In this document: positions 3,942 to 50,988 of the stretch, in pieces
Position numbering within the stretch: position 1 is the first letter of the stretch
How the letters are laid out: every line of letters starts with the position of its first letter
Origin: a virus
Strand: one strand, 5' to 3'
Length of the DNA: 64,000 nucleotides
IMG/VR virus record: IMGVR_UViG_3300021962_000044
Location: 1-64,000 of that record
Translations under genes and position numbers: made by a program
The notes under the pieces: model-generated
The model's database searches: none
Seen by the model: the letters and a program-made list of their open reading frames with translations, nothing else
Told to the model about the DNA's origin: nothing

Positions 3942-4535
3942 TTATAAATATTCCCAGCCTGATCTACCGCGTTTTATTAACCCTCGGATAGCCTGACCAC
4001 TAATACCATATGATAATCCGGCTAGTTTTGTACTAGGAAAATGTTCTCCTGAGGGAGAAATACAAGGTCGATTGCGGTATTCTGCTAGTTTTTTCTTAGA
4101 ATTAGTTGTATGTGTTTTTCCTTTAAAAGGAGATTTTCTGCCCCTAGCACTATCAGCCATTTTTTGTTTGGTATCATCACTATGCTTTTTAATACCTTTA
4201 GTAAGCGCAGACATTGCAGCCGATGCTTCACGTTTCAATTGCTCATACAACCTTGATGATATTTTATATCTATTATGTAGTTTTGAATGTGCGGTCATCA
4301 TATCCACAGCCTTAATCATTTGAAATTTTGCTTTTCCCTCAACCATTTTAACTAATAATCTATGACAAATAAAATGCTCTCTGGCTGTTAATCTAATTAA
4401 ATTATCTTTTTTATTAGTACCGCCGAGACACTTTGGGATTATATGATGTTTTTCCGAGTATTCATCCAAAACTCTTGCTTTTGCTCTATTAACTATGTTA
4501 TTATACGTTATGGTATACTTATTATCTAAATACAT
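3942..4535 (-). CDS. HNH homing endonuclease (antiparallel insertion)
   Basis: A 197-residue protein with an HNH core (EKHHIIPKCLGG, DNLIRLTAREHF, then a His in CHRLL) and NUMOD-like DNA-binding repeats in the C-terminal half (KGKTHT, SKKKLAEYRN, ending in a helix-turn-helix-like segment). The start at 4535 is chosen because AAAGGAGC lies 8-10 bases upstream; the frame stays open further up but without a ribosome site. The gene fills the space between uvsW and the next plus-strand gene: its stop touches the uvsW stop and its late promoter lies 14 bp from the neighbour's start. It is therefore a free-standing mobile gene. Its leader is shared with the GIY-YIG gene at 24937. Confidence 0.9.
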   Translation of the reverse strand: MYLDNKYTITYNNIVNRAKARVLDEYSEKHHIIPKCLGGTNKKDNLIRLTAREHFICHRLLVKMVEGKAKFQMIKAVDMMTAHSKLHNRYKISSRLYEQLKREASAAMSALTKGIKKHSDDTKQKMADSARGRKSPFKGKTHTTNSKKKLAEYRNRPCISPSGEHFPSTKLAGLSYGISGQAIRGLIKRGRSGWEYL

Positions 4536-4592
4536 TGCTGATTGCTCCTTTGTAGCGTTAGAGAGGGTGGGAACTGCAATTCCGCGACCCTC
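4536..4592 (-). ncRNA. Structured 5' leader of the HNH gene
   Basis: The predicted transcript begins at 4592 with GAGGGT (4592-4587), a loop starting CGCGG, then ACCCTC (4568-4563), giving a 6-bp hairpin at the very 5' end; GGAA and TTCC inside the loop can extend it. CTCTAACGCTA and AAAGGAGC follow before the ATG. The leader at 24883-24936 has the same layout with a different stem that still pairs. Confidence 0.75.
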
Positions 4593-4597
4593 ACACT

Positions 4598-4605
4598 TAT
4601 TTATC
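4598..4605 (-). promoter_or_regulatory. T4-type late promoter for the HNH gene
   Basis: GATAAATA on the minus strand. The predicted start is 4592, the first base of the leader hairpin. Confidence 0.8.
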
Positions 4606-4618
4606 ACGGAGAACTAAA

Positions 4619-5119
4619 ATTCGCATCCTAACACTAGACAATGAGTTCTATAACCTAGAAACACTTCCCGAAGAAATTGATGACCTGCGTTTTGCTATAT
4701 TGGACAATAGTAATCCCTCAAACGTAGATTATCATTACATTCCACTAATCTTTTTGGAATCATTTAACAGTCCTGCACTTGTATTAAAGATTGGTAACAG
4801 CACTATTAAGATGCCAGTGGATTGGCAAATACTAATTGGCGAACAAGAACATGGGGACTTAGAGACATTACCATTAACAAGTATCAATGATAGAGGCTTC
4901 AATGCATTTGAGTTTAATCCATTAAGTTCATTCAGTCCCTCATTCGTACCTATCGAGATTGTAGATATCTATCACGATGTAACATGGTATGCACCTCGCT
5001 TGAAAAACGGACAGTTCTTATGTGTGCCGATTGATGATGGACCTAAACCTCGCTGTGTATATTTTGTTAAAGAAATTAGTCGTAATTGTGAAATAGTAGA
5101 TTATAGTCAGGCATTCTAA
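4619..5119 (+). CDS. Conserved phage protein with probable ATT start
   Basis: A 166-residue protein whose N-terminus would read MRILTLDNEFYNLETLP, then a mostly beta-rich body. I do not recognise a functional domain. The start is placed at the ATT at 4619 because GGAG (4608-4611) sits 7 bases upstream, whereas the TTG at 4700 has no ribosome site and would remove a well-formed N-terminus. One G-to-T change would turn the expected ATG into ATT. The stop overlaps the next ATG (TAATG at 5117-5121), so it is coupled to the clamp-loader-like gene. It probably belongs to the uvsW operon, read through the antiparallel HNH insertion. Confidence 0.65.
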   Translation: MRILTLDNEFYNLETLPEEIDDLRFAILDNSNPSNVDYHYIPLIFLESFNSPALVLKIGNSTIKMPVDWQILIGEQEHGDLETLPLTSINDRGFNAFEFNPLSSFSPSFVPIEIVDIYHDVTWYAPRLKNGQFLCVPIDDGPKPRCVYFVKEISRNCEIVDYSQAF

Positions 5120-5709
5120 TGGCAACGAAAAAGAGTACACCTACTGATGAAAAGTTTGAAGGGCAAGACTTTGACTTGTTTGATGCTCTTACAGCTATGG
5201 ATAAAAAAGACTATGGTTATTATGACAGATTAACAGAAGAACAACAAAAGAAGTTTGTTCCCTATATGATGACACATTGGATGAGTGCTATTAAAGGATC
5301 GGGTGACGTTCAGGGCTATTATTTACGTAGTGTTGACTATCACGCAAACAAACATCTATTCAATGAATATGTACAGAAACATCCTAAATTGCAATGGTAT
5401 ATGTTATGTGCTAGTAGTCCTGGATTAGGAAAACAGTTCCATCAATGGATTCCCCATTTAGGTAGCAAAGTTACATCATTAAAAGAACCTGCAAAAGCAA
5501 AAGATATCAAAGAATATTACACTAAGATTTATCCCAAAGTTGGTGCAGATGATATTGATGAGATTGCTAAGGCCTTTGTAGTAGAACATAAACGTAAATG
5601 TTATCTAGCAGAAACATTCCCTAACTTAAAACAATCGGATATAGAAGTTCTTAGTCAATTGGTGACTGAAGAAGAAATTAAGCAATATGAAAAAGACCGA
5701 GGAAACTAA
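5119..5709 (+). CDS. 62: Probable clamp-loader small subunit (gp62-like)
   Basis: A 196-residue, helix-rich protein. The segment LQWYMLCASSPGLGKQFHQW resembles the gp62 region around AVPRGKRYGKW, and the length is close to T4 gp62 (187 residues). In T4, gp62 joins gp44 to load the gp45 sliding clamp onto DNA. The partner gp44 is in this window at 52256, far from this gene, unlike the adjacent 44-62 pair in T4. The start overlaps the preceding stop (TAATG). Identity rests on weak motif similarity and context, so other replication accessory roles are possible. Confidence 0.6.
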   Translation: MATKKSTPTDEKFEGQDFDLFDALTAMDKKDYGYYDRLTEEQQKKFVPYMMTHWMSAIKGSGDVQGYYLRSVDYHANKHLFNEYVQKHPKLQWYMLCASSPGLGKQFHQWIPHLGSKVTSLKEPAKAKDIKEYYTKIYPKVGADDIDEIAKAFVVEHKRKCYLAETFPNLKQSDIEVLSQLVTEEEIKQYEKDRGN

Positions 5710-6385
5710 ATCACTACATGGTTGTGAGTTCTGTAAAGCTACGTTCCAACGTGAAAGCACAGTACTTAAACATATATGTGAAACTAAACGTAGATGGTTA
5801 GAACGTGACCGTCAAGGTAATCGTGTGGGTTTTCAAGCTTGGCTACAGTTTTATAAGAAAAATACTGCAGGTACAAAAAATCGTACATATGAGGAATTCA
5901 TTAAGAATCCTTATTACCTTGCGTTCATTAAGTTTGGTCTATATTGTGTAGAGATTAAGTGTATTAATGTAAGTAGATTTAGTGATTGGTTATTAAAGAA
6001 TTCAATTCGTATTGATAACTGGCGACAAGACAGTAACTATACAAAGTTCTTATGTGAATATTTACGAACAGAAGATCCATTAGATGCGATACATCGTAGC
6101 ATTGAAACTACAATGGATAAAGCTGAAAATGAAAAAATTCAAAGCAGAGATTATTTACGCTATGGCAATGTAAATAATATATGTTATGAGATTGCCAGAG
6201 GACGAATTAGTCCATGGATGTTATATCAAAGTTCTAGTGGTGTAAGATTTTTAGATACATTACGTGATGACCAGCAGAAGATGATTATTGACTATATCAA
6301 TCCAGAGCAATGGGCCATTAAGTTTAAACGTGAACCAGAAAACGTGAAACAAGTTAAGGAATTATTAAATGCGGGCGGGTACTAG
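5687..6385 (+). CDS. Zinc-finger protein of unknown function
   Basis: A 232-residue protein. Residues 13-31 carry a CxxC...HxxxC pattern (CEFCKATF, then LKHICE) like a small C2H2/C2HC finger. The remainder is helical and basic with many aromatic residues. It overlaps the end of the gp62-like gene by 23 bp and the next small gene by 17 bp, so it is part of one translationally linked operon with replication genes. A DNA-binding or transcription-related role is a guess from the finger only. Confidence 0.75.
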   Translation: MKKTEETKSLHGCEFCKATFQRESTVLKHICETKRRWLERDRQGNRVGFQAWLQFYKKNTAGTKNRTYEEFIKNPYYLAFIKFGLYCVEIKCINVSRFSDWLLKNSIRIDNWRQDSNYTKFLCEYLRTEDPLDAIHRSIETTMDKAENEKIQSRDYLRYGNVNNICYEIARGRISPWMLYQSSSGVRFLDTLRDDQQKMIIDYINPEQWAIKFKREPENVKQVKELLNAGGY

Positions 6386-6563
6386 AGTTCGTATACCATG
6401 GCAGAAAGGTGATATTATAGATTGGAATCAAACCTGTGCTTGGGCTATGGAACAGTTTGGATTACCCGGTGATAGATATGTTACACACTCAACTGAAAAT
6501 TATTTGGATTTCTATTTCAAGGATGAACGTGATGCTATTCTTTTTGAGTTGACCCGTGGCTGA
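6369..6563 (+). CDS. Small protein A of a tandem family (C-terminal FxLRW-type motif)
   Basis: A 64-residue protein ending DFYFKDERDAILFELTRG. The C-terminal pattern (aromatic-x-F-x-x-E-K/R-D, then F-x-L-x-R) recurs in the following genes. AAGGAATT precedes the ATG, which lies inside the end of the zinc-finger gene. Function unknown. Confidence 0.75.
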   Translation: MRAGTRVRIPWQKGDIIDWNQTCAWAMEQFGLPGDRYVTHSTENYLDFYFKDERDAILFELTRG

Positions 6564-6771
6564 CGTTATCCTATATATTACCGCCAAAAGAACTATGGAA
6601 ATAGGACATGAGTTACGAAACATGGGTTATATTCAGGGTGTTGATTTTGACTATGCTTACTACCAAGAGAAGTATGACAACTTTAGCCATGAACCTATTG
6701 TGAAACGACATGCAAGATTTACTTTTTACAATGATACTAATGCTAGTTATTTTGCGTTGAGGTGGGGATGA
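6556..6771 (+). CDS. Small protein B of a tandem family
   Basis: A 71-residue protein with a GTG start inside the end of gene A. It ends RFTFYNDTNASYFALRWG, the same C-terminal motif as its neighbours. The first 30 residues resemble a small alpha/beta unit. Function unknown. Confidence 0.7.
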   Translation: MADVILYITAKRTMEIGHELRNMGYIQGVDFDYAYYQEKYDNFSHEPIVKRHARFTFYNDTNASYFALRWG

Positions 6772-7085
6772 ATATAACAGAAGAAATTATTAATCAAGTA
6801 GCCGATCAAATGGCTAAAGATATTGACGCAATGGTGTTAATGTCTGCATTAGGATGGCATTCTTTTGATTTTAATAAAGGTACCGTTTATGGTCAACCGT
6901 ATTTGACTGTACAACCATTGGACAGTATTAAATGGAAAGAAATGGAAGCATGGATGGTAGAAACATTTGGACCTACAGCACACGACGGTGTATGGACACC
7001 TGACATGAGATGGTATATGAATAATTCTAAGTTTTGGTTTCGTAACAAAAAAGATTTAGAATGGTTTCTACTAAGATGGCAATAA
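6768..7085 (+). CDS. Small protein C of a tandem family
   Basis: A 105-residue protein ending KFWFRNKKDLEWFLLRWQ. The ATG at 6768 overlaps the previous stop as ATGA and is preferred over the upstream GTG at 6762. It has a helical N-terminal extension (residues 1-40) that its neighbours lack, then the shared unit: a segment around EMEAWMVETFG, a Trp-rich stretch and the C-terminal motif. Function unknown. Confidence 0.75.
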   Translation: MNITEEIINQVADQMAKDIDAMVLMSALGWHSFDFNKGTVYGQPYLTVQPLDSIKWKEMEAWMVETFGPTAHDGVWTPDMRWYMNNSKFWFRNKKDLEWFLLRWQ

Positions 7086-7315
7086 TTGAACATTATGAAC
7101 GAGACCGTAGTTGGGATGAAACTAAACCTGGTTGGTATGAATGTAGTGTGAAAATAAAACGTATTGACAAATACTTAGAATTAATCGATTGGTTATATGC
7201 CAATATAGGAAAATGTGAAAGACATTGTAGATGGCGTACTACTTCCGATGATACAGTTAGTGTCAAGTTTAGATATGAAAAAGATTATATTATGTTTACG
7301 TTGAGGTGGAGTTGA
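7076..7315 (+). CDS. Small protein D of a tandem family
   Basis: A 79-residue protein ending VKFRYEKDYIMFTLRWS. I chose the ATG at 7076, which overlaps the previous gene by 10 bp; an upstream ATG at 7061 would add five residues. The central part (LELIDWLYANIG, CRWRTT) matches the arrangement in gene C. Function unknown. Confidence 0.72.
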   Translation: MAIIEHYERDRSWDETKPGWYECSVKIKRIDKYLELIDWLYANIGKCERHCRWRTTSDDTVSVKFRYEKDYIMFTLRWS

Positions 7316-7581
7316 TGGCAACCATACCTCAAATACAAGATTACGATGACGATGATCCAAATATAGAACAGCGTAAAAAGCGTTGGGATTATTGGACAGC
7401 ATTGAAACTTGTACGTAAAGAATATATGGAACAAAACAAAGAGTTTGACGCATATGATTTTGAAGATTACCTTATAGGACAATATGGTATAAGAATGAAC
7501 ATTATTAATGGCAACATAACTGATGGTTATGAGATTGTTGACGAAAAGAAGTACCTAATATTTTTATTAAAATTCCAATGA
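7315..7581 (+). CDS. Small protein E of a tandem family
   Basis: An 88-residue protein ending YEIVDEKKYLIFLLKFQ, a diverged form of the shared C-terminus. The ATG at 7315 overlaps the previous stop (TGATG) and has GGTGGAG upstream. It starts with a very acidic stretch (DDDD). Function unknown. Confidence 0.72.
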   Translation: MATIPQIQDYDDDDPNIEQRKKRWDYWTALKLVRKEYMEQNKEFDAYDFEDYLIGQYGIRMNIINGNITDGYEIVDEKKYLIFLLKFQ

Positions 7582-7925
7582 ACCAATTATTTCCCATAAC
7601 CTCTATACAAAACAACAAATTTATGTTATCATGGCCTAACTGGGATAACATTAAACAGTTTGATACAAAAAAATTATTAATAGAATTATTGTTTAAAGAT
7701 ATGAAAGTTAAAGAAGCTGGAGTTGCATTAGATATGTATGACGGTGAGATAGATATTATGTGGATAGACCATCAATGGTGGATGAAAGATATCAATGGTG
7801 AATATGCAAAGTACCTAGAAGATATGTATACAATTAAAGGTGTAGCTTTTAATAGTGAAATAGAAGCATTGAAGCTACGAGATTACTTAGAGAAAAAATA
7901 TATTTGGAAAACATTGCAGGCGTAA
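7578..7925 (+). CDS. Small protein F, last of the tandem group
   Basis: A 115-residue protein, start overlapping the previous stop as ATGA. It is the most diverged member: residues near the end (AFNSEIEALKLRDYL) still resemble the shared motif, but a further helical tail follows. Membership in the family is tentative. Function unknown. Confidence 0.65.
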   Translation: MNQLFPITSIQNNKFMLSWPNWDNIKQFDTKKLLIELLFKDMKVKEAGVALDMYDGEIDIMWIDHQWWMKDINGEYAKYLEDMYTIKGVAFNSEIEALKLRDYLEKKYIWKTLQA

Positions 7926-7926
7926 T

Positions 7927-8481
7927 ATGGCACAAGACATAATGATAGATATGGAAACACTTGACACAAGTCCTGATTGTGTTATCTTAACCATTGGTGC
8001 AGTAAGATTTGATCCTAAAGGTAGTGGAGTTGTTGAAAGACTAGAATTACGACCTACTATTGAAGAACAAACAGAAATTTATAATAGGAGTATAAATGAA
8101 GATACATTACGCTGGTGGGGTGAGCAAAGTCCGGCAGCTCTTGAAGAGGCTATGGGAGAAAATGGCAGAATTCCATTTAAAGAATGTATGGAAATACTTT
8201 ATAAGTTTTGTTGGAATCGCCGTGCTGTGTGGAGTAATGGTGCATCATTTGATGTGGTTGTGGCAGAGTCGGCCTGGAGAAACCTTGAAATGCGAACCCC
8301 CTGGCCTTTCTACACCGTTAGAGATACACGTACCTTGTATGAGATAACTGGAGTAAGTCTTAAAGACGGCGGTCACGTAACCAGTCACAAAGCAGTTGAA
8401 GATGCCGAAAGACAAGCAATTGTTGTACAAAAAGCGTATACTAAATTAATTAAAGCAGAACTGGTACCTCCCCCAAAATGA
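7927..8481 (+). CDS. dexA: DexA-like 3'-5' exonuclease (DEDDh)
   Basis: A 184-residue DnaQ-fold exonuclease. The first acidic pair is D8 and E10 (IDMETL), the second motif is WSNGASFDVVV, and the third is HKAVEDAERQA, where His and Asp complete the DEDDh set. It matches the T4 DexA / Rv2179c-type group, which degrades single-stranded DNA or RNA 3'-5'. The length is shorter than T4 DexA (227). The gene is coupled by an ATGA overlap to the DnaE-like palm half that follows, which raises the possibility that it acts as the proofreading partner of that protein. Confidence 0.85.
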   Translation: MAQDIMIDMETLDTSPDCVILTIGAVRFDPKGSGVVERLELRPTIEEQTEIYNRSINEDTLRWWGEQSPAALEEAMGENGRIPFKECMEILYKFCWNRRAVWSNGASFDVVVAESAWRNLEMRTPWPFYTVRDTRTLYEITGVSLKDGGHVTSHKAVEDAERQAIVVQKAYTKLIKAELVPPPK

Positions 8482-9041
8482 GAATAGACTCAGATATTGA
8501 CATTGACTTTGGTGATAGAGATAAGTTATTACAACTTATAAAATATACGCCGGCAGCAATGCGTAATGTAAAACCAATACGTAAACATGCTACCGGTGTA
8601 TATGTTACTGACATTCCATATGATCCAGTCAACAGTATGTCAAGTATTGATTATACAGTTGCAGATAAACGTGGATATTTTAAATTAGACTTATTGAATG
8701 TTCATGTGTATAGTCAGGTTAGTGATGAACTGCATTTAATAGAATTAATGCGAGAACCTAACTGGGATAAACTTAAAGATCCTGTATTTGTAGAGAAATT
8801 AATTCACTTAAATAATCAATTTTATAATTTACAAAAAATGCCGGAACCAGTAGATAGTATTCCTAGATTAGCTATGTTTCTAGCTGTAATTCGTCCTGGT
8901 AAGAAGCATTTAATAGGTGAACGATGGATTAATGTTGCTAAAACTGTATGGGATAAAGGTACAGACGGGTATGTGTTTAAAAAGTCGCATAGTTTAGCCT
9001 ATTCACAGCTAGTTGTAGTTCATATGAACCTATTAGGGTAA
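8478..9041 (+). CDS. DnaE-like (family C) polymerase palm, C-terminal half
   Basis: A 187-residue protein that aligns by eye with bacterial DNA polymerase III alpha. DIDIDF (residues 6-11) followed by GDRD matches the DFDVDF catalytic pair. RKHATGVYVT (35-44) matches the KHAGGVVI segment. FKLDLLNV (68-75) matches KFDFLGL with the third catalytic Asp. AVIRPG (136-141) matches ALFRPG, and GYVFKKSHSLAYS (164-176) matches GYGFNKSHSAAYA. The thumb and most of the fingers are missing or very short. It begins where the protein encoded at 50482 ends relative to DnaE, so the two look like halves of one core. The start overlaps the dexA stop (ATGA). It may be catalytic with its partner or a repurposed remnant. 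Confidence 0.8.
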   Translation: MRIDSDIDIDFGDRDKLLQLIKYTPAAMRNVKPIRKHATGVYVTDIPYDPVNSMSSIDYTVADKRGYFKLDLLNVHVYSQVSDELHLIELMREPNWDKLKDPVFVEKLIHLNNQFYNLQKMPEPVDSIPRLAMFLAVIRPGKKHLIGERWINVAKTVWDKGTDGYVFKKSHSLAYSQLVVVHMNLLG

Positions 9042-17783: not shown

Positions 17784-19262
17784 ATGGCCATTATACAGAT
17801 ATCGAAAATTCAACAACGTTCAGGTAACCTTGTAGACCTGCCACAATTATCAGAAGCACAATTAGGTTGGGCAAATGATGCTAAACGCCTTTTTATAGGT
17901 GGTACCGGCAATGCTAATACTTATAATGAAAACATTGAGGTATTAACATCATATTCTGATATTACCTTTAGCCAAATAAATGGTAGTGAAGGTAACCTAG
18001 ATATTAATTCTGCCGCATCAGGACAAGTTTTGGGTTATAACGGAACTGATTGGGTTAACAAAGGCGGCACAGCAGGCGGACTAATTAATTTAGGCACAGT
18101 AGCCAATGTTAAATTAGGTGGAGGTGTTAATGGATATGTGTTACAAACAGATGGTTTGGGTAATTTAAGTTGGACTACTCAAACAGGTGGTGGCGGCAAT
18201 GCTAACGCTGCCGGCTCTAATACACAAATTCAATTTAATAATGCTGGTTTGTTTGGTGGAAATTCAGGATTTACTTTTGAACAAGTTACCGGCGCAATGG
18301 CAGTTCCAGGAACACTTGCAGTAAGCAATACAATTACCGGAACAAGATTAATATCTAATATCGCTACAGGAACAGCCCCGTTAACGGTAACAAGTACCAC
18401 ACAAGTTGCTAACTTAAATGTAGCTACATCAGGTGTTGCAGGAACAGTAACAACAGCGGCACAACCTAATATCACCTCAGTAGGAACACTAACAAGCTTA
18501 ACAGTAACTGGTAATATTATCGGTGGCAATGTATATGCTAACACAGGCACAATTGGTGCAACTAATTTAACTGGTACACTAACAACAGCCGCACAGCCAA
18601 ACATAACAAGTGTAGGCACATTAACTAGTTTAACTGTTACAGGAAATATTACGAGTGGCAATGTATATGCTAATAGTGGTACTGTTGGCGCTAGTTTATT
18701 AACTGGTACATTAACCACTGCGGCACAACCAAATATTACAAGTGTTAGCACTTCATTTACCAATCTTACATTTGCAAATGCACAAACAATCAGTGGTAAT
18801 AATATGACATTGACTACTGGCGCAAACACAAATGTTGGTACTATTACTGGTAATTGGTCATTATCTACCGGATCACAGCTACGTGCCACATATGCTGACT
18901 TAGCAGAATATTATGTAGCAGATCAACATTATGAATCTGGTACTGTTTTAGCATTTGGCGGAGACAAAGAAGTTACACTAGCAGAAGATGGAACATCACG
19001 TGTTGCAGGTATTGTTTCAACTAACCCAGCATATGTATTGAATACTGCATGTGAAGGTGAACATACCGTAGTATTAGCATTACAAGGACGTGTTCCTTGC
19101 AAGGTGCGTGGAATAATTCGTAAAGGTGATATGATGGTATCTGGCGGAAATGGCTTTGCTAGAGCAAGTTTATCACCTCATATGGGAACAGTTATTGGCA
19201 AAGCATTAGAAAACTTTGATGGAATCGAGGGCGTAATTGAAGTCGCTGTCGGTAGATTATAA
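17784..19262 (+). CDS. Tail fibre-like protein with repeats and conserved C-terminal domain
   Basis: A 492-residue protein. The N-terminus (QISKIQQRSGNLVDLP, RLFIGG) matches the N-terminal unit of structural proteins in aquatic T4-like phages. The middle has three repeats of the form TAAQPNITSVGTLTSLTVTG. The last 135 residues (from ITGNWSLS, with ATYADLAEYY, VALQGRVP and KGDMMVS) are paralogous to the C-terminus of the protein encoded at 42689. The C-terminal domain resembles fibre-tip or Peptidase_G2-like intramolecular chaperone domains; I am unsure of that. Probably a distal fibre or adhesin. Confidence 0.82.
   Translation: MAIIQISKIQQRSGNLVDLPQLSEAQLGWANDAKRLFIGGTGNANTYNENIEVLTSYSDITFSQINGSEGNLDINSAASGQVLGYNGTDWVNKGGTAGGLINLGTVANVKLGGGVNGYVLQTDGLGNLSWTTQTGGGGNANAAGSNTQIQFNNAGLFGGNSGFTFEQVTGAMAVPGTLAVSNTITGTRLISNIATGTAPLTVTSTTQVANLNVATSGVAGTVTTAAQPNITSVGTLTSLTVTGNIIGGNVYANTGTIGATNLTGTLTTAAQPNITSVGTLTSLTVTGNITSGNVYANSGTVGASLLTGTLTTAAQPNITSVSTSFTNLTFANAQTISGNNMTLTTGANTNVGTITGNWSLSTGSQLRATYADLAEYYVADQHYESGTVLAFGGDKEVTLAEDGTSRVAGIVSTNPAYVLNTACEGEHTVVLALQGRVPCKVRGIIRKGDMMVSGGNGFARASLSPHMGTVIGKALENFDGIEGVIEVAVGRL
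18446..18760 (+). repeat. Three tandem fibre repeats
   Basis: Three diverged copies, each about 75 bp with about 125-135 bp periodicity, encode TAAQPNITSVGTLTSLTVTG-like units. The same unit recurs about seven times in the gene at 42689. Confidence 0.75.
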
Positions 19263-24936: not shown

Positions 24937-25551
24937 ATGACTATTTATCTTTATAAAAAGACCCATCGTATTACTGGATTAAAGTATCTAGGAAAAACTT
25001 CTTCAAAAGACCCGCATTTATACACAGGTTCGGGAAAATATTGGAAATCGCATCTAAACAAGCACGGATTTGATTACGATACTGAAATCTTAAGAGAATG
25101 TTATACTAACGATGAAGTTAAGCAATGGGGTGAATATTACAGTAACTTATGGAATATAGTTGAAAGTAATGAATGGGCTAATCTAAAAATAGAATCAGGT
25201 GACGGGGGCGATCCCGGTCCAATTGGTCGTAGTAAAATTGCAAAAGCTCAAACAGGAAGAAAACATACTACAGAAGAAAATGAGCACAAAAGCAAAAGAC
25301 AAACTGGTATAAAACGATCACCGGATTATCTTGCAAAAAAGATTGGACTAACATACAAAAAACCAAAAGCAAGAACTAGGCCAAACAAAAACAAAGGCAG
25401 ACAACTAACACAAGAATGGATTGATAATAGTGCAAAAAGTCGCACCGGCATGAAATACAAAATAATAGAATGTCCGCATTGCGGGAAACAGGGCGGGTCT
25501 TGCACTATGCCAAGATGGCATTTTAATAATTGCAAATCTCTAAAATCTTAA
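24937..25551 (+). CDS. GIY-YIG homing endonuclease (antiparallel insertion)
   Basis: A 204-residue protein. The N-terminal GIY-YIG core is IYLYKKTHRITGLKYLGKT (residues 3-21), with DYDTEILRE and an E-Y-Y helix following. NUMOD3-like repeats (GRKHTTEE, TGIKRSPDYL, TGMKYK) and a C-terminal zinc motif (CPHCGKQGG, then WHFNNC) supply DNA binding, as in Seg-type enzymes. It sits antiparallel between gp14 and gp15; its stop codon overlaps the gp14 stop codon, so it fills the intergenic space exactly. It is expressed late from its own promoter. Confidence 0.93.
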   Translation: MTIYLYKKTHRITGLKYLGKTSSKDPHLYTGSGKYWKSHLNKHGFDYDTEILRECYTNDEVKQWGEYYSNLWNIVESNEWANLKIESGDGGDPGPIGRSKIAKAQTGRKHTTEENEHKSKRQTGIKRSPDYLAKKIGLTYKKPKARTRPNKNKGRQLTQEWIDNSAKSRTGMKYKIIECPHCGKQGGSCTMPRWHFNNCKSLKS

Positions 25552-30490: not shown

Positions 30491-31321
30491 ATGAAAAACA
30501 TACTTGCAACCATAATTGCTGAAGATACAAGTTATAATAAATCTGTAACTAGATATTTGAGTAAAACACATCCTGAATTATGGAATAAAATATTAGAAAT
30601 CACCTCTTTTTTACCAAAAAATGCTAAACCTAAACAAAGAGTGTGGCATGTATTACATGAAAAATATTCCATAGAGCTATGTCCAATTACCGGAGAAGCA
30701 TTGCGATGGAATGAAAAAGATTACAGAAGATTTGCGTCCATTGAAGCAAAAAATAAAGGTATCGGAAAGATAGTCAGTAGTGCAACTACTGGTAATCATT
30801 GGAGACAAAAAGATCCTAATAAATCTATGCAAGCTAATGAAAAATTCTCAACTGGATTTATTAAGGGTAATCATAAGCCTTGGAATGAACGTAACAGAGA
30901 TTACACATCTAGTTTAGAAGCAGCCAGAAAAACTTGGATGGAAAAATATGGAGTTGATAATCCCTCTAAATGTCCTGCTATACGGCAAAAACTTTCTAAA
31001 TCTGCAATCAGTAGATATTCAGGAGTAGATAGAACTCTGGAAGTAGAATATTATAACGCTGTTAAATTGGTCACTAATAAAAACTGGTATGAACATTTTT
31101 ATGATATTAATCCTAATCGGTTGTCAAGAAGTAGAGACCTTCACTTAGACCACATTTACAGTATTAGTGAAGGTTTCAAAAATAATATTCCTGCAGAAGT
31201 TATTGGGCATTGGACTAATCTAAGATTAATTCCAAAAATAGAAAACTCTAGTAAGGGTGCCAAATGTCACAAAACAATAGAAGAATTATTTGAGGATTAT
31301 AATAGGGTAAATTCTAATTGA
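30491..31321 (+). CDS. HNH homing endonuclease
   Basis: A 276-residue protein. The HNH core is at the C-terminus: LDHIYSISEGF, then HWTNLRLIP and IENSSKGAK. The middle contains a MEKYGVDNPSK-type repeat typical of phage homing enzymes (DNA-recognition). It is co-directional with gp13 and, unlike the HNH at 4535, has no hairpin leader; its late transcript should start on the ATG. Its stop codon overlaps the -35 box of the dNMP kinase promoter. Confidence 0.88.
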   Translation: MKNILATIIAEDTSYNKSVTRYLSKTHPELWNKILEITSFLPKNAKPKQRVWHVLHEKYSIELCPITGEALRWNEKDYRRFASIEAKNKGIGKIVSSATTGNHWRQKDPNKSMQANEKFSTGFIKGNHKPWNERNRDYTSSLEAARKTWMEKYGVDNPSKCPAIRQKLSKSAISRYSGVDRTLEVEYYNAVKLVTNKNWYEHFYDINPNRLSRSRDLHLDHIYSISEGFKNNIPAEVIGHWTNLRLIPKIENSSKGAKCHKTIEELFEDYNRVNSN

Positions 31322-42688: not shown

Positions 42689-45328
42689 ATGAGTCAACAA
42701 AACATAGATTTCGGTTCCTTCCCCGACGATCCGAATGCGGATGCAATAAGAACGGCATTCCAAAAAGTACAAGATAACTTTGATGAAATATATGCAGCAG
42801 CCACTGTAGGTAGTGTAACATCAGTTAATAATGGTTCCGGCATTACAGTTAATACTCCTACAGGTAGTGTTGTTGTTACAGCTAATATTGCATGTGTACA
42901 AGTATCCACATCTTCATTATTAGTTAGTCGATCAGGTAGTACACCCGGAACATCTGCTAATATTACCAGTTCTTCTCAAATATTAGTAATAGATATTAAT
43001 CCGGCAAATGTTTTTTCTGCTAATTTTTCTGGTGTCAGCGGAGCATTAGCAAATCTTACCGGAACATTAACAACAAACTCTAACAGTCAACCAAATATTA
43101 CAAGTGTTGGTACACTAGCAAACTTAACAGTAACTGGAAATGCTAATGTAGGTAATATTGGTGCTACCGGAGTTGTTGCAACTACATTAGGCGGAACATT
43201 AACAACTATATCACAACCAAATGTAACAAGCGTAGGAAATTTAACTTCATTAAATGTAACCGGTAATATTAGGTCATCAGCTTATATAGGTGGAAATGTA
43301 TCTACTACTGGAGCCAATGCAATATTTGTAGGTGACGGTGGTTTATTAAGTAACTTAACTGTCTCGGCTGGTAGTTCAATTGTTAATGGTAATAGTAATG
43401 TTAGTATAACGGCAAACGGTAATGTAACTACTAGTGTTGCAGGCATTGCTGACATATTCATTGTTACTAGTACTGGTGCTAATGTATCCGGATATCTAAC
43501 TGTTTCTGGTAATATCACCGGTGCAAATGCAAATCTTGGTAATGCTGTTACTGCTAATTATTTTATTGGTAATTTACATGGTATTGCTAACAGTGCTACT
43601 ACTGCGGGTACAGTAACAACTGCGGCACAACCTAATATTACAAGTGTCGGTACATTAAGCTCAGTAACAGTAACTGCTGATGTGACAGCAGGAAATGTTT
43701 ATGCTAATAGTGGTATAGTTAAGGGACAATATTTATACGGTGATGGCAGTAATATTTCTAATATTACTATTTCAGCAGGTAGCTCTATTGTTAATGGTAC
43801 AAGTAATGTAAGTATACCGGGAGCTAATGGTAATGTTAATACCGTTGTTGCCGGTAACACTACTTTAGTTGTCACTGGAACAGGGGTTAACGTAGCAGGT
43901 AATTTAAACGCTACCGGTACTATTACTGGTAACTTCAACGGCAATGTAATTAATGCTACACAGGGCAATATTACAAGTTTAGGAACATTAACAGGGTTAA
44001 ATGTATCTGGTGCAAGTAATTTAGGTCCAGTGGGTAATGTAACAATTACCGGCGGCAATGCCAATGCATTTTTAATGACTAATGGATCTGGAACATTAAC
44101 TTGGAATAACGGTACACTATTACCGGTACAAGGTAGTAATAGTCAAGTAATATTTAATGACGGTGGAACAATTTATGCAGGTAATGCTAACTTAACTTTT
44201 AATAAAACAACTGGATTATTAACATCAACTTTATTAGGTGGAACATTAACTACAGCCGCCCAACCAAATATAACAAGCTTGGGTTCACTAACATCAATCA
44301 CTATTAATGGACCTACTATTGCTAATGGTACATTTAATACCGGAAATGCTAATGCAAATATTATCACTGCTAACTATTACATAGGTAATGGTTCAAATTT
44401 AGCAAGTATAACAGGTGCAAATGTAACCGGAACTGTAGCAAACGCAACATACGCAATAACTGCGGGTACTGCAACAACTGCGGGTACAGTAACAACAGCC
44501 GCACAACCAAATATTACAAGTGTTGGTACACTGACTGGATTAGGTGTAAATGGTACAATTACTGGTGTAAATATTACTGCAAATACAGGCGTGTTTACAG
44601 GTAATGGTAGTTCTTTAACAGCACTAAATGCAAATAACATTAGTTCAGGTACTCTTGCTCAAGCAAGATTAGCAAATGCAAGTGTAACATTAGGTAGCAC
44701 AGCATTAACGCTTGGTTCAACAGTAACAACAGTTGCAGGCCTGTCAAGCGTTACATCAACTACATTTGTTGGTTCATTGAGTGGTGCGGCAACAACAGCA
44801 GGTACAGTAACAACAGCCGCACAACCAAATATTACAAGTGTTGGTACATTGACCTCATTAACAACAACTACTATTAGTACTGGTGCAAACTCAACAGCAG
44901 GAACTATTACTGGTAATTGGTCATTGTCAGCTGGATCCCAATTACGGGCTACATATGCTGACTTAGCAGAATATTATGCAGGTGATTCAAATATTGAACC
45001 AGGCACGGTAATTGAATTTGGCGGCACACAAGAAGTTCAAATTTGTAATTCATATATGAGTAGGTTAGTTGCTGGCATTGTTACAACAAAACCAGCATAT
45101 ATAATGAATACTGATATCAGTTGTGAATATCCTATTGCAATTGCATTACAAGGTCGTGTTCCGGCTAAAGTAATTGGACCAGTAAAACGAGGTGATATGA
45201 TGGTTAGCTCAAACAACGGTCATGCTATATCTTGTAAATCACCTAATATGGGAACTGTATTAGGAAAAGCACTAACTGATTTTGACGGTAAAACAGGTAT
45301 AATAGAAATTATGGTAGGAAGAACATAA
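42689..45328 (+). CDS. Large tail fibre protein, repeat-rich
   Basis: An 879-residue protein. The N-terminus (FGSFPDDPNADAIRTAF, VQDNFDEIYAA) is a trimerisation or attachment unit common in aquatic-phage structural proteins. The middle carries about seven copies of TAAQPNITSVGTLTSLTVTG. The last 140 residues (ITGNWSLSAGSQ, ATYADLAEYY, VPAKVIGPVKRGDMMVSS) are paralogous to the C-terminus of the protein encoded at 17784. It opens an operon with the endolysin and a second fibre-like gene. Confidence 0.83.
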   Translation: MSQQNIDFGSFPDDPNADAIRTAFQKVQDNFDEIYAAATVGSVTSVNNGSGITVNTPTGSVVVTANIACVQVSTSSLLVSRSGSTPGTSANITSSSQILVIDINPANVFSANFSGVSGALANLTGTLTTNSNSQPNITSVGTLANLTVTGNANVGNIGATGVVATTLGGTLTTISQPNVTSVGNLTSLNVTGNIRSSAYIGGNVSTTGANAIFVGDGGLLSNLTVSAGSSIVNGNSNVSITANGNVTTSVAGIADIFIVTSTGANVSGYLTVSGNITGANANLGNAVTANYFIGNLHGIANSATTAGTVTTAAQPNITSVGTLSSVTVTADVTAGNVYANSGIVKGQYLYGDGSNISNITISAGSSIVNGTSNVSIPGANGNVNTVVAGNTTLVVTGTGVNVAGNLNATGTITGNFNGNVINATQGNITSLGTLTGLNVSGASNLGPVGNVTITGGNANAFLMTNGSGTLTWNNGTLLPVQGSNSQVIFNDGGTIYAGNANLTFNKTTGLLTSTLLGGTLTTAAQPNITSLGSLTSITINGPTIANGTFNTGNANANIITANYYIGNGSNLASITGANVTGTVANATYAITAGTATTAGTVTTAAQPNITSVGTLTGLGVNGTITGVNITANTGVFTGNGSSLTALNANNISSGTLAQARLANASVTLGSTALTLGSTVTTVAGLSSVTSTTFVGSLSGAATTAGTVTTAAQPNITSVGTLTSLTTTTISTGANSTAGTITGNWSLSAGSQLRATYADLAEYYAGDSNIEPGTVIEFGGTQEVQICNSYMSRLVAGIVTTKPAYIMNTDISCEYPIAIALQGRVPAKVIGPVKRGDMMVSSNNGHAISCKSPNMGTVLGKALTDFDGKTGIIEIMVGRT
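43060..44870 (+). repeat. About seven fibre repeats
   Basis: Diverged copies encoding TAAQPNITSVGTL-type units are spaced 130-400 bp apart (near 43070, 43200, 43610, 43965, 44245, 44490 and 44810). They share DNA similarity with the repeats at 18446-18760. Confidence 0.7.
44906..45325 (+). repeat. C-terminal fibre domain duplicated from/to 18843-19259
   Basis: The two stretches encode paralogous C-terminal domains and are nearly identical over the first 75 bp, then diverge. They could support recombination between fibre genes. Confidence 0.75.
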
Positions 45329-50481: not shown

Positions 50482-50988
50482 ATGAAAACTGATAATTATG
50501 GTCAATTAATTTTTAATCAAAATGACCTATGCGAATTATTCTTACAAGACCCTACCCGTACTATCAATAATGCACTAGTTGATAGCGTGATAGAATTTAA
50601 TGGGTTTCTATCATTAGACAATATTCCAAATTTACAATTGTATCAAAAACCAACTATATCACTGGAAGAGTTTGATAACAATAAGCAGAAAAATTGGCAT
50701 ATGCCCAAAGAATATTATGAATTAGATATTGCTAAATGGGTGTTAGATCAATGCAAAAGTGAAGCAGAATTACAACGTGCAGGTGAGGAATTAATTAAGT
50801 TCCAAGAACGTAATATGTTTGTATTATTACAATATTTAAAGTATTTGGTTGACACAATGCGTAAGAATAATATTGTTTGGGGAGTGGGTAGGGGTAGTAG
50901 TGTAGCAAGTTTTGTATTGTTTTTAATAGGAATACACCGTATAAATAGTTTATACTATGATCTATCTATAGATGAGTTTTTAAAATAA
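50482..50988 (+). CDS. DnaE-like (family C) polymerase palm, N-terminal half
   Basis: A 168-residue protein. The last 60 residues align with bacterial DNA polymerase III alpha: FVLLQYLKYLVDTMRKNN matches YFLIVMEFIQWSKDNG, WGVGRGSSVASFVLFLIGI (133-151) matches the GPGRGSGAGSLVAYAL nucleotide-binding loop, and YYDLSIDEFLK (158-168) matches FDLLFERFLN. It ends just where the DFDVDF catalytic strand should begin; that strand opens the protein encoded at 8478. The first 70 residues do not resemble the PHP domain. Predicted leaderless and early. Confidence 0.8.
   Translation: MKTDNYGQLIFNQNDLCELFLQDPTRTINNALVDSVIEFNGFLSLDNIPNLQLYQKPTISLEEFDNNKQKNWHMPKEYYELDIAKWVLDQCKSEAELQRAGEELIKFQERNMFVLLQYLKYLVDTMRKNNIVWGVGRGSSVASFVLFLIGIHRINSLYYDLSIDEFLK

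Follow-up and report, generated by a model that had tools for sequence, protein, structure and literature searches.

A modular array of small overlapping phage genes, with tail codons that double as the translation signal of the next gene

The DNA analysed here (the window) comprises 64,000 nucleotides, positions 1 to 64,000 of the IMG/VR virus record IMGVR_UViG_3300021962_000044, and contains, between positions 6369 and 7925, a run of six small overlapping genes (g1-g6), which a preliminary description had taken for a single family. Profile comparisons support the common descent of five of them, g1-g5, which appear to be cassettes of a modular array: codons of the conserved protein tail also form the predicted Shine-Dalgarno (SD) sequence of the gene that follows, or contain its start codon, and the segment upstream of these codons is conserved only as protein. 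This double use is new, and so is the apparent turnover of cassettes between fixed flanks, with exchange points placed within codons and with swapped N-terminal modules. The anatomy of the array is well supported and its function is only inferred; we give about an even chance to the reading that it encodes accessory proteins with an effect on the host or on its defences, made diverse by the shuffling of cassettes.

Results

The array and its immediate flanks, with the start codons of g1-g6 inferred from the sequence, are as follows.

5687-6385, plus strand: P0, the fixed 5' flank gene (phrog_11058, unknown function; PHROG match at 2e-53)
6369-6563, plus strand: g1, the first cassette, 64 residues, C-terminus FELTRG; ATG at 6369, 17 nucleotides inside P0
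6556-6771, plus strand: g2, cassette, 71 residues, C-terminus FALRWG; GTG at 6556, 8-nucleotide overlap with g1
6757-6771, plus strand: g2/g3 seam TTGAGGTGGGGATGA, L-R-W-G-stop of g2 with the SD sequence and ATG of g3; predicted anti-SD pairing -8.8 kcal/mol
6768-7085, plus strand: g3, cassette, 105 residues, C-terminus FLLRWQ; ATG at 6768, 4-nucleotide overlap with g2
6768-6858, plus strand: N-terminal module of g3, a near-match to the N-terminus of another cassette (L087:3625-3879)
7076-7315, plus strand: g4, cassette, 79 residues, C-terminus FTLRWS; ATG at 7076, 10-nucleotide overlap with g3
7301-7317, plus strand: g4/g5 seam TTGAGGTGGAGTTGATG, L-R-W-S-stop of g4 with the SD sequence and start of g5; predicted anti-SD pairing -10.1 kcal/mol
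7315-7581, plus strand: g5, cassette, 88 residues, C-terminus FLLKFQ; ATG at 7315, 1-nucleotide overlap with g4
7578-7925, plus strand: g6, the conserved small gene that closes the row, next to the exonuclease; ATG at 7578, 4-nucleotide overlap with g5
7927-8481, plus strand: Rv2179c-like 3'-5' exonuclease, the fixed 3' flank (Pfam PF16473, 1.5e-30)

The five C-termini quoted in the preliminary description are all found in the sequence, and each gene does start within the end of the preceding one, the overlaps of g1-g6 being 17, 8, 4, 10, 1 and 4 nucleotides. As to the proposed common motif FxLRW, it holds strictly for g2-g4, while g1 (LTRG) and g5 (LLKFQ) deviate from it.

Relatives of the array were collected in two sets of loci: 80 viral loci found with the gene at 5119-5709 as a query (phrog_11758, unknown function; the name gp62 is not adopted for it), and at least 116 further loci retrieved by a DNA pattern for KDAxWFxLRW. 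Motif frequency is biased in the second set because it was chosen by the motif; the first was not so chosen. A profile of the last 26 residues matched 650 open reading frames (ORFs) at E<1e-3 in 186 of the 197 sources (196 loci and the window), with a maximum of 14 matches per locus; a motif profile, applied to the reverse-strand ORFs of the window and of the first 80 loci, matched none of them below 1e-3. When the orthologues of each gene were taken out of the C-terminal profile and the 339 ORFs of the window were scored, g1 (5e-5), g2 (0.005), g3 (8e-9) and g4 (4e-8) all outranked the ORFs outside the array, the best of which had E values of 0.24-0.62, whereas g5 (E 2.1) and g6 (E 2.3) did not. 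Iterated full-length profiles matched g1, g3 and g4 mutually over the whole domain at E<=1e-14. With the main profile g2 shares only its last ~20 residues (hhalign 94%, 1.5e-7), and g5 is linked to it through intermediates with DEKKFxWFxLRW ends (E 1e-10 to 1e-15) and by profile-profile comparison (hhalign 91%, 1e-6). The C-terminal profile search suggested in the preliminary description recovers, then, g1-g4 directly and g5 via intermediates, and their C-termini are not unrelated. As for g6, its membership was rejected (hhalign 0.7%); since it shows no detectable relation to the others, the family has five members in the window and not the six initially counted.

The C-terminal segment of the family reads F.F....DA.WF.L, in units of about 60-110 residues. 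The ratio of nonsynonymous to synonymous substitution rates (dN/dS) is 0.09-0.24 for g1-g6, with three sequences each for g4 and g6, and 0.07-0.10 for the flank genes, so that g1-g6 should be regarded as selected proteins. No significant match to g1-g6 was found in Pfam or PHROG, and the core domain gave no recurrent match in Pfam, PHROG, NCBIfam or PADLOC (isolated weak or fragment matches only) and no match in a sequence-profile search of PDB. Anti-restriction proteins that mimic DNA were considered and rejected, as the members are not strongly acidic (median isoelectric point 6.06, 5-95% range 4.47-9.62; 8.45 for g4). Four longer members of ~130-150 residues (L055:5544-5975, L075:8048-8497, L122:7117-7533 and L196:9480-9929) share a conserved N-terminal region reading ...DFYHGYxYV...YGPGG..., which forms a recurring module distinct from the others.

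The usual tail of a member is encoded by TTG AGG TGG x TGA, the L-R-W codons of which make up the predicted SD sequence of the next overlapping gene; the hexamer GAGGTG is part of the perfect complement to the 3' end of 16S rRNA. Tails with AGA or AAA TGG hold the start codon of the next gene instead, and the ATG of g4 sits in the AGA TGG of g3; in the window, strong SD sites are found at g2/g3 and g4/g5, and a start within the codons at g3/g4. At the R/K position 224 of the 333 Arg codons are AGG, whereas the share of this codon is 8% in large ORFs and 7% in the rest of the family. Position by position, in 164 representatives, strong codon bias was seen only at L (TTG 0.57 vs 0.16), at R (AGG 0.69 vs 0.10) and at the final residue, and only slight bias at K, D, A and F. 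Predicted anti-SD pairing averaged -7.0 kcal/mol over 124 seams, compared with -2.6 after synonymous recoding (p=2e-19), and the next ORF starts within -13..+15 nucleotides in 402 of 418 distinct seams, mostly as ATGA or TGATG; only 16 seams are uncoupled, too few for an informative comparison with the coupled ones. Because codon bias is confined to these positions, F.F....DA.WF.L should be held as protein, and L-R-W with the last residue also as a translation signal. The seam codons can therefore be read as the SD sequence or start of the next gene, and the common LRW would reflect, besides descent, the need of the following gene for a ribosome-binding site or a start, a cause absent from the preliminary account. 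The rarity of such seams in the phage Phosso, where F-K-L is kept and R-W varied, fits this role of L-R-W. An integron-like array was considered too and not retained: no conserved recombination site longer than the translation signal was seen, codon usage upstream of L-R-W is close to background, and an integrase was not searched for.

In records with both flanks, g1 comes first in nearly all and g5 or g5-g6 often last, with a variable number of other genes between them, up to an array of 14 cassettes (L085). Three records have g4 ahead of g2, and 14 lack only g3. Internal cassettes thus appear to be gained, lost and reordered between fixed flanks. The tail of g2 depends on its follower: before g3 it is TTG AGG TGG (10 distinct seams), and before g4, where g3 is absent, mostly CTA AAA/AGA TGG, like that of g3, followed by the same g4 leader (10 distinct seams). 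For this reason we deduce that the exchange points lie within the L-R-W codons and that the translation signal moves together with the downstream gene.

The N-terminal parts seem to have an exchange history of their own. The first ~97 nucleotides of g3 are near-identical to the start of the other cassette listed above, after which the similarity stops, and the 3' part of g3 matches L099:621-884; g3 is a chimera. In other members the N-terminus contains a piece of gp23, the major capsid protein, with Pfam Gp23 (PF07068) matches up to 2e-12, from three regions of that protein (about 48-97, 151-223 and 328-376), in several contigs and in Phosso (113923-114303); several N-terminal modules evidently derive, as far as similarity can tell, from gp23 fragments. 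As for the module of g3, which resembles a gp23 helix, a profile of 35 g3-type cassette modules ranked gp23s at the top of 1036 background ORFs (2e-4 to 0.01), and the g3 module alone gave a poor score against gp23 (E 5.4), so that its origin from gp23 is only probable. Matches of other members to ribonucleotide reductase and to primase/helicase are weak, and the detection of donors favours conserved proteins. By eye, the N-termini of L120:4412-4672 (DYDVSSMYPS) and L158:2349-2621 (NDISSMYPS) resemble motif A in DNA polymerases of family B. Phosso also has a gp23-like fragment (PV764938.1:182280-182546, E 4.6e-10) in a 228-residue frame lying outside the matches of the family profile.

Members of the family occur in three cultured phages, which makes their function open to testing. 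Whole-record searches gave 38 profile matches with E values up to 1, of which 25 fell below 1e-3, in Phosso, a Sinorhizobium jumbo phage of 469 kilobases (kb), five in Atu_ph07 (E<0.01) and three in PA5oct. Munch, SCTP-2 and the T4-like cyanophage P-HM1 gave no match. In two environmental jumbo contigs, of 354 and 364 kb, the matches numbered 29 and 26 and fell into more than one array. The comparison of copy number in related phages, which the preliminary description had also suggested, thus yields up to 14 copies per locus and tens of copies in some genomes. Single-sequence tblastn with four members against 50,697 phage records gave no match, although the profile finds members in isolates, and a codon-pattern scan of genome contigs gave none either. 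In the stretches viewed, Phosso members are annotated as hypothetical proteins; they mostly end in DAMLFKL followed by variable residues, and are widely placed, among tRNA, methyltransferase and Clp genes. P0 has tblastn matches in 61 phage records, and is also present in the jumbo phages PA5oct, Phosso, Atu_ph07 and Munch. Since the genomes of its relatives exceed 280 kb in all 20 phage records listed, and since the order of the flanking genes is found again in PA5oct and Phosso, the window, taken from a 111-kb record, probably belongs to a jumbo-phage genome. We found no description of arrays of such cassettes in the literature, which was covered in part; the family appears to be a large undescribed one of jumbo phages and their aquatic relatives.

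Discussion

By its sequence each cassette comes with its own translation signal, embedded in the tail of its neighbour, and recombination within a seam can therefore bring in a gene, take one out or exchange it and leave both reading frames and expression intact. Variable N-terminal modules, some of them descended from gp23, are exchanged onto a common C-terminal scaffold. The proteins might be accessory effectors of host takeover or counter-defence, co-translated from a single message. The partner would be determined by the N-terminal part, the C-terminal part providing a common fold or a common partner, and changing hosts or defences would be followed by replacing whole cassettes and not by rapid substitution of residues. 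Such a scheme offers a concrete route to a modular polycistronic array, as the conserved tail of one gene already contains the ribosome-binding site for its successor. The preliminary proposal of local duplication and divergence was right about common descent and too simple in other respects, as cassettes are exchanged between phages and reordered and their N-termini are swapped. Its suggestion that the proteins inhibit different host targets seems plausible. Several points weigh against an effector function: the low dN/dS within orthologues is unlike an arms race at the level of residues, the locus adjoins replication genes and a replication role is conceivable, libraries of defence and anti-defence proteins gave no match beyond isolated weak ones, and function, fold and target are not known for any of the members.

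The replication neighbourhood deserves to be weighed further, as the genes might encode small subunits or regulators of the neighbouring replication proteins (the exonuclease and a DnaE-like fragment) that arose in their variety through duplication. Wherever a record has both flanks, the array does lie between P0 and the exonuclease with the DnaE-like gene, and the positions of g1 and g5/g6 are the most stable; however, PA5oct and Munch have similar neighbours without an array there, Phosso members are found in many other places, and copy number at the locus ranges from a few to 14, so we consider such a role quite unlikely. That the array is kept in a replication operon, as initially stated, is true of the window, whereas Phosso and other genomes have arrays elsewhere. 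It is somewhat easier to imagine, though still unlikely, that the gp23 pieces act as decoys for, or modulate, factors that bind gp23, whether capsid sensors of the host or assembly factors of the phage, with the common domain as effector or anchor. The use of three different gp23 regions, also in the isolate Phosso, agrees with this, and capsid protein is a known trigger of defence, CapRel being a reported host sensor of the major capsid protein gp23 (PMC9712102). On the other hand, most members have no recognisable gp23 piece, identity is only ~28-52%, the window's own module scores poorly by itself, and detection is biased because fragments of highly conserved proteins are the easiest to recognise. 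The repeated reuse of capsid fragments as N-terminal modules makes capsid mimicry against host sensors directly testable.

Seam exchange points, patchwork N-termini and fragments of other phage genes could also be expected of selfish cassettes, small ORFs persisting mainly through their easily recombining ends with little benefit to the phage; the low dN/dS, the frames open throughout and the conserved first and last genes make this improbable. Finally, the motif could be a mere by-product of the constraint on ribosome-binding sites, without homology, since the LRW codons form an SD sequence and Phosso tails vary R-W; but F.F....DA.WF.L is conserved without strong codon bias, and g1, g3 and g4 are linked over the whole domain, which makes such an origin hardly credible. 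A translation-signal artefact is refuted for F.F....DA..F.L and remains a partial cause for R-W. Returning to cassette-borne effectors, one could generalise them into a phage-wide system of small proteins on a common C-terminal scaffold, the last codons of which form a standardised, self-carrying translation signal, and onto which fragments of core proteins are grafted as mimics or decoys, the donors being gp23 repeatedly and possibly ribonucleotide reductase, helicase and DNA polymerase. We regard this extension as rather doubtful; if it is true, the grafts would oppose host sensors of those core proteins, or competing phages.

Translational coupling of overlapping phage genes, with the SD sequence within the end of the upstream gene, is well known; what differs here is that L-R-W codons are used for this at hundreds of seams within a single family, leaving a shared amino-acid motif. 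The hyperplastic accessory regions of T4-like phages likewise place small genes, variable and little conserved, between those of a conserved core, but here one family fills the slots, its tail is also the next gene's translation signal, and the profile finds no member in P-HM1. Amplification of T4 tifA and other anti-defence genes (PMC9391042; driven by SegB, PMC13096335) is alike in that recombination alters the copy number of small genes; it produces recent copies of one locus, in contrast to the long-diverged cassettes of varied order and content, exchanged in frame at seams, that are seen here. Bacillus phage G resembles the present case: in this jumbo phage a single small domain, a zinc ribbon, has undergone a lineage-specific expansion (~35 copies); the domain is another one, and the part of the source available describes no cassette seams (PMC7824862). 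As for gp23, it is the source of several N-terminal modules, and the difference from the protein sensed by CapRel is that the modules are no more than short pieces, joined to a domain that is not related to gp23.

Other features of the window

Downstream of the exonuclease, a short ORF at 8478-9041 resembles part of the bacterial DNA polymerase III alpha subunit (phrog_11778, 9e-53), and Phosso has a similar short gene annotated as DnaE-like. A second short ORF like polymerase III alpha, judged by eye (GVGRGSSVASF), lies at 50482-50988; together the two possibly represent a split polymerase. The ORF at 3942-4607 (minus), which closely precedes the array and is encoded on the other strand, has the look, by eye, of an HNH or GIY-YIG homing endonuclease, as do those at 24937-25551 and 30491-31321 (both plus). 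Two long ORFs, 17784-19262 and 42689-45328, with repeated TTAAQPNITSVGTL segments and similar C-termini (also by eye), are probably tail fibres.
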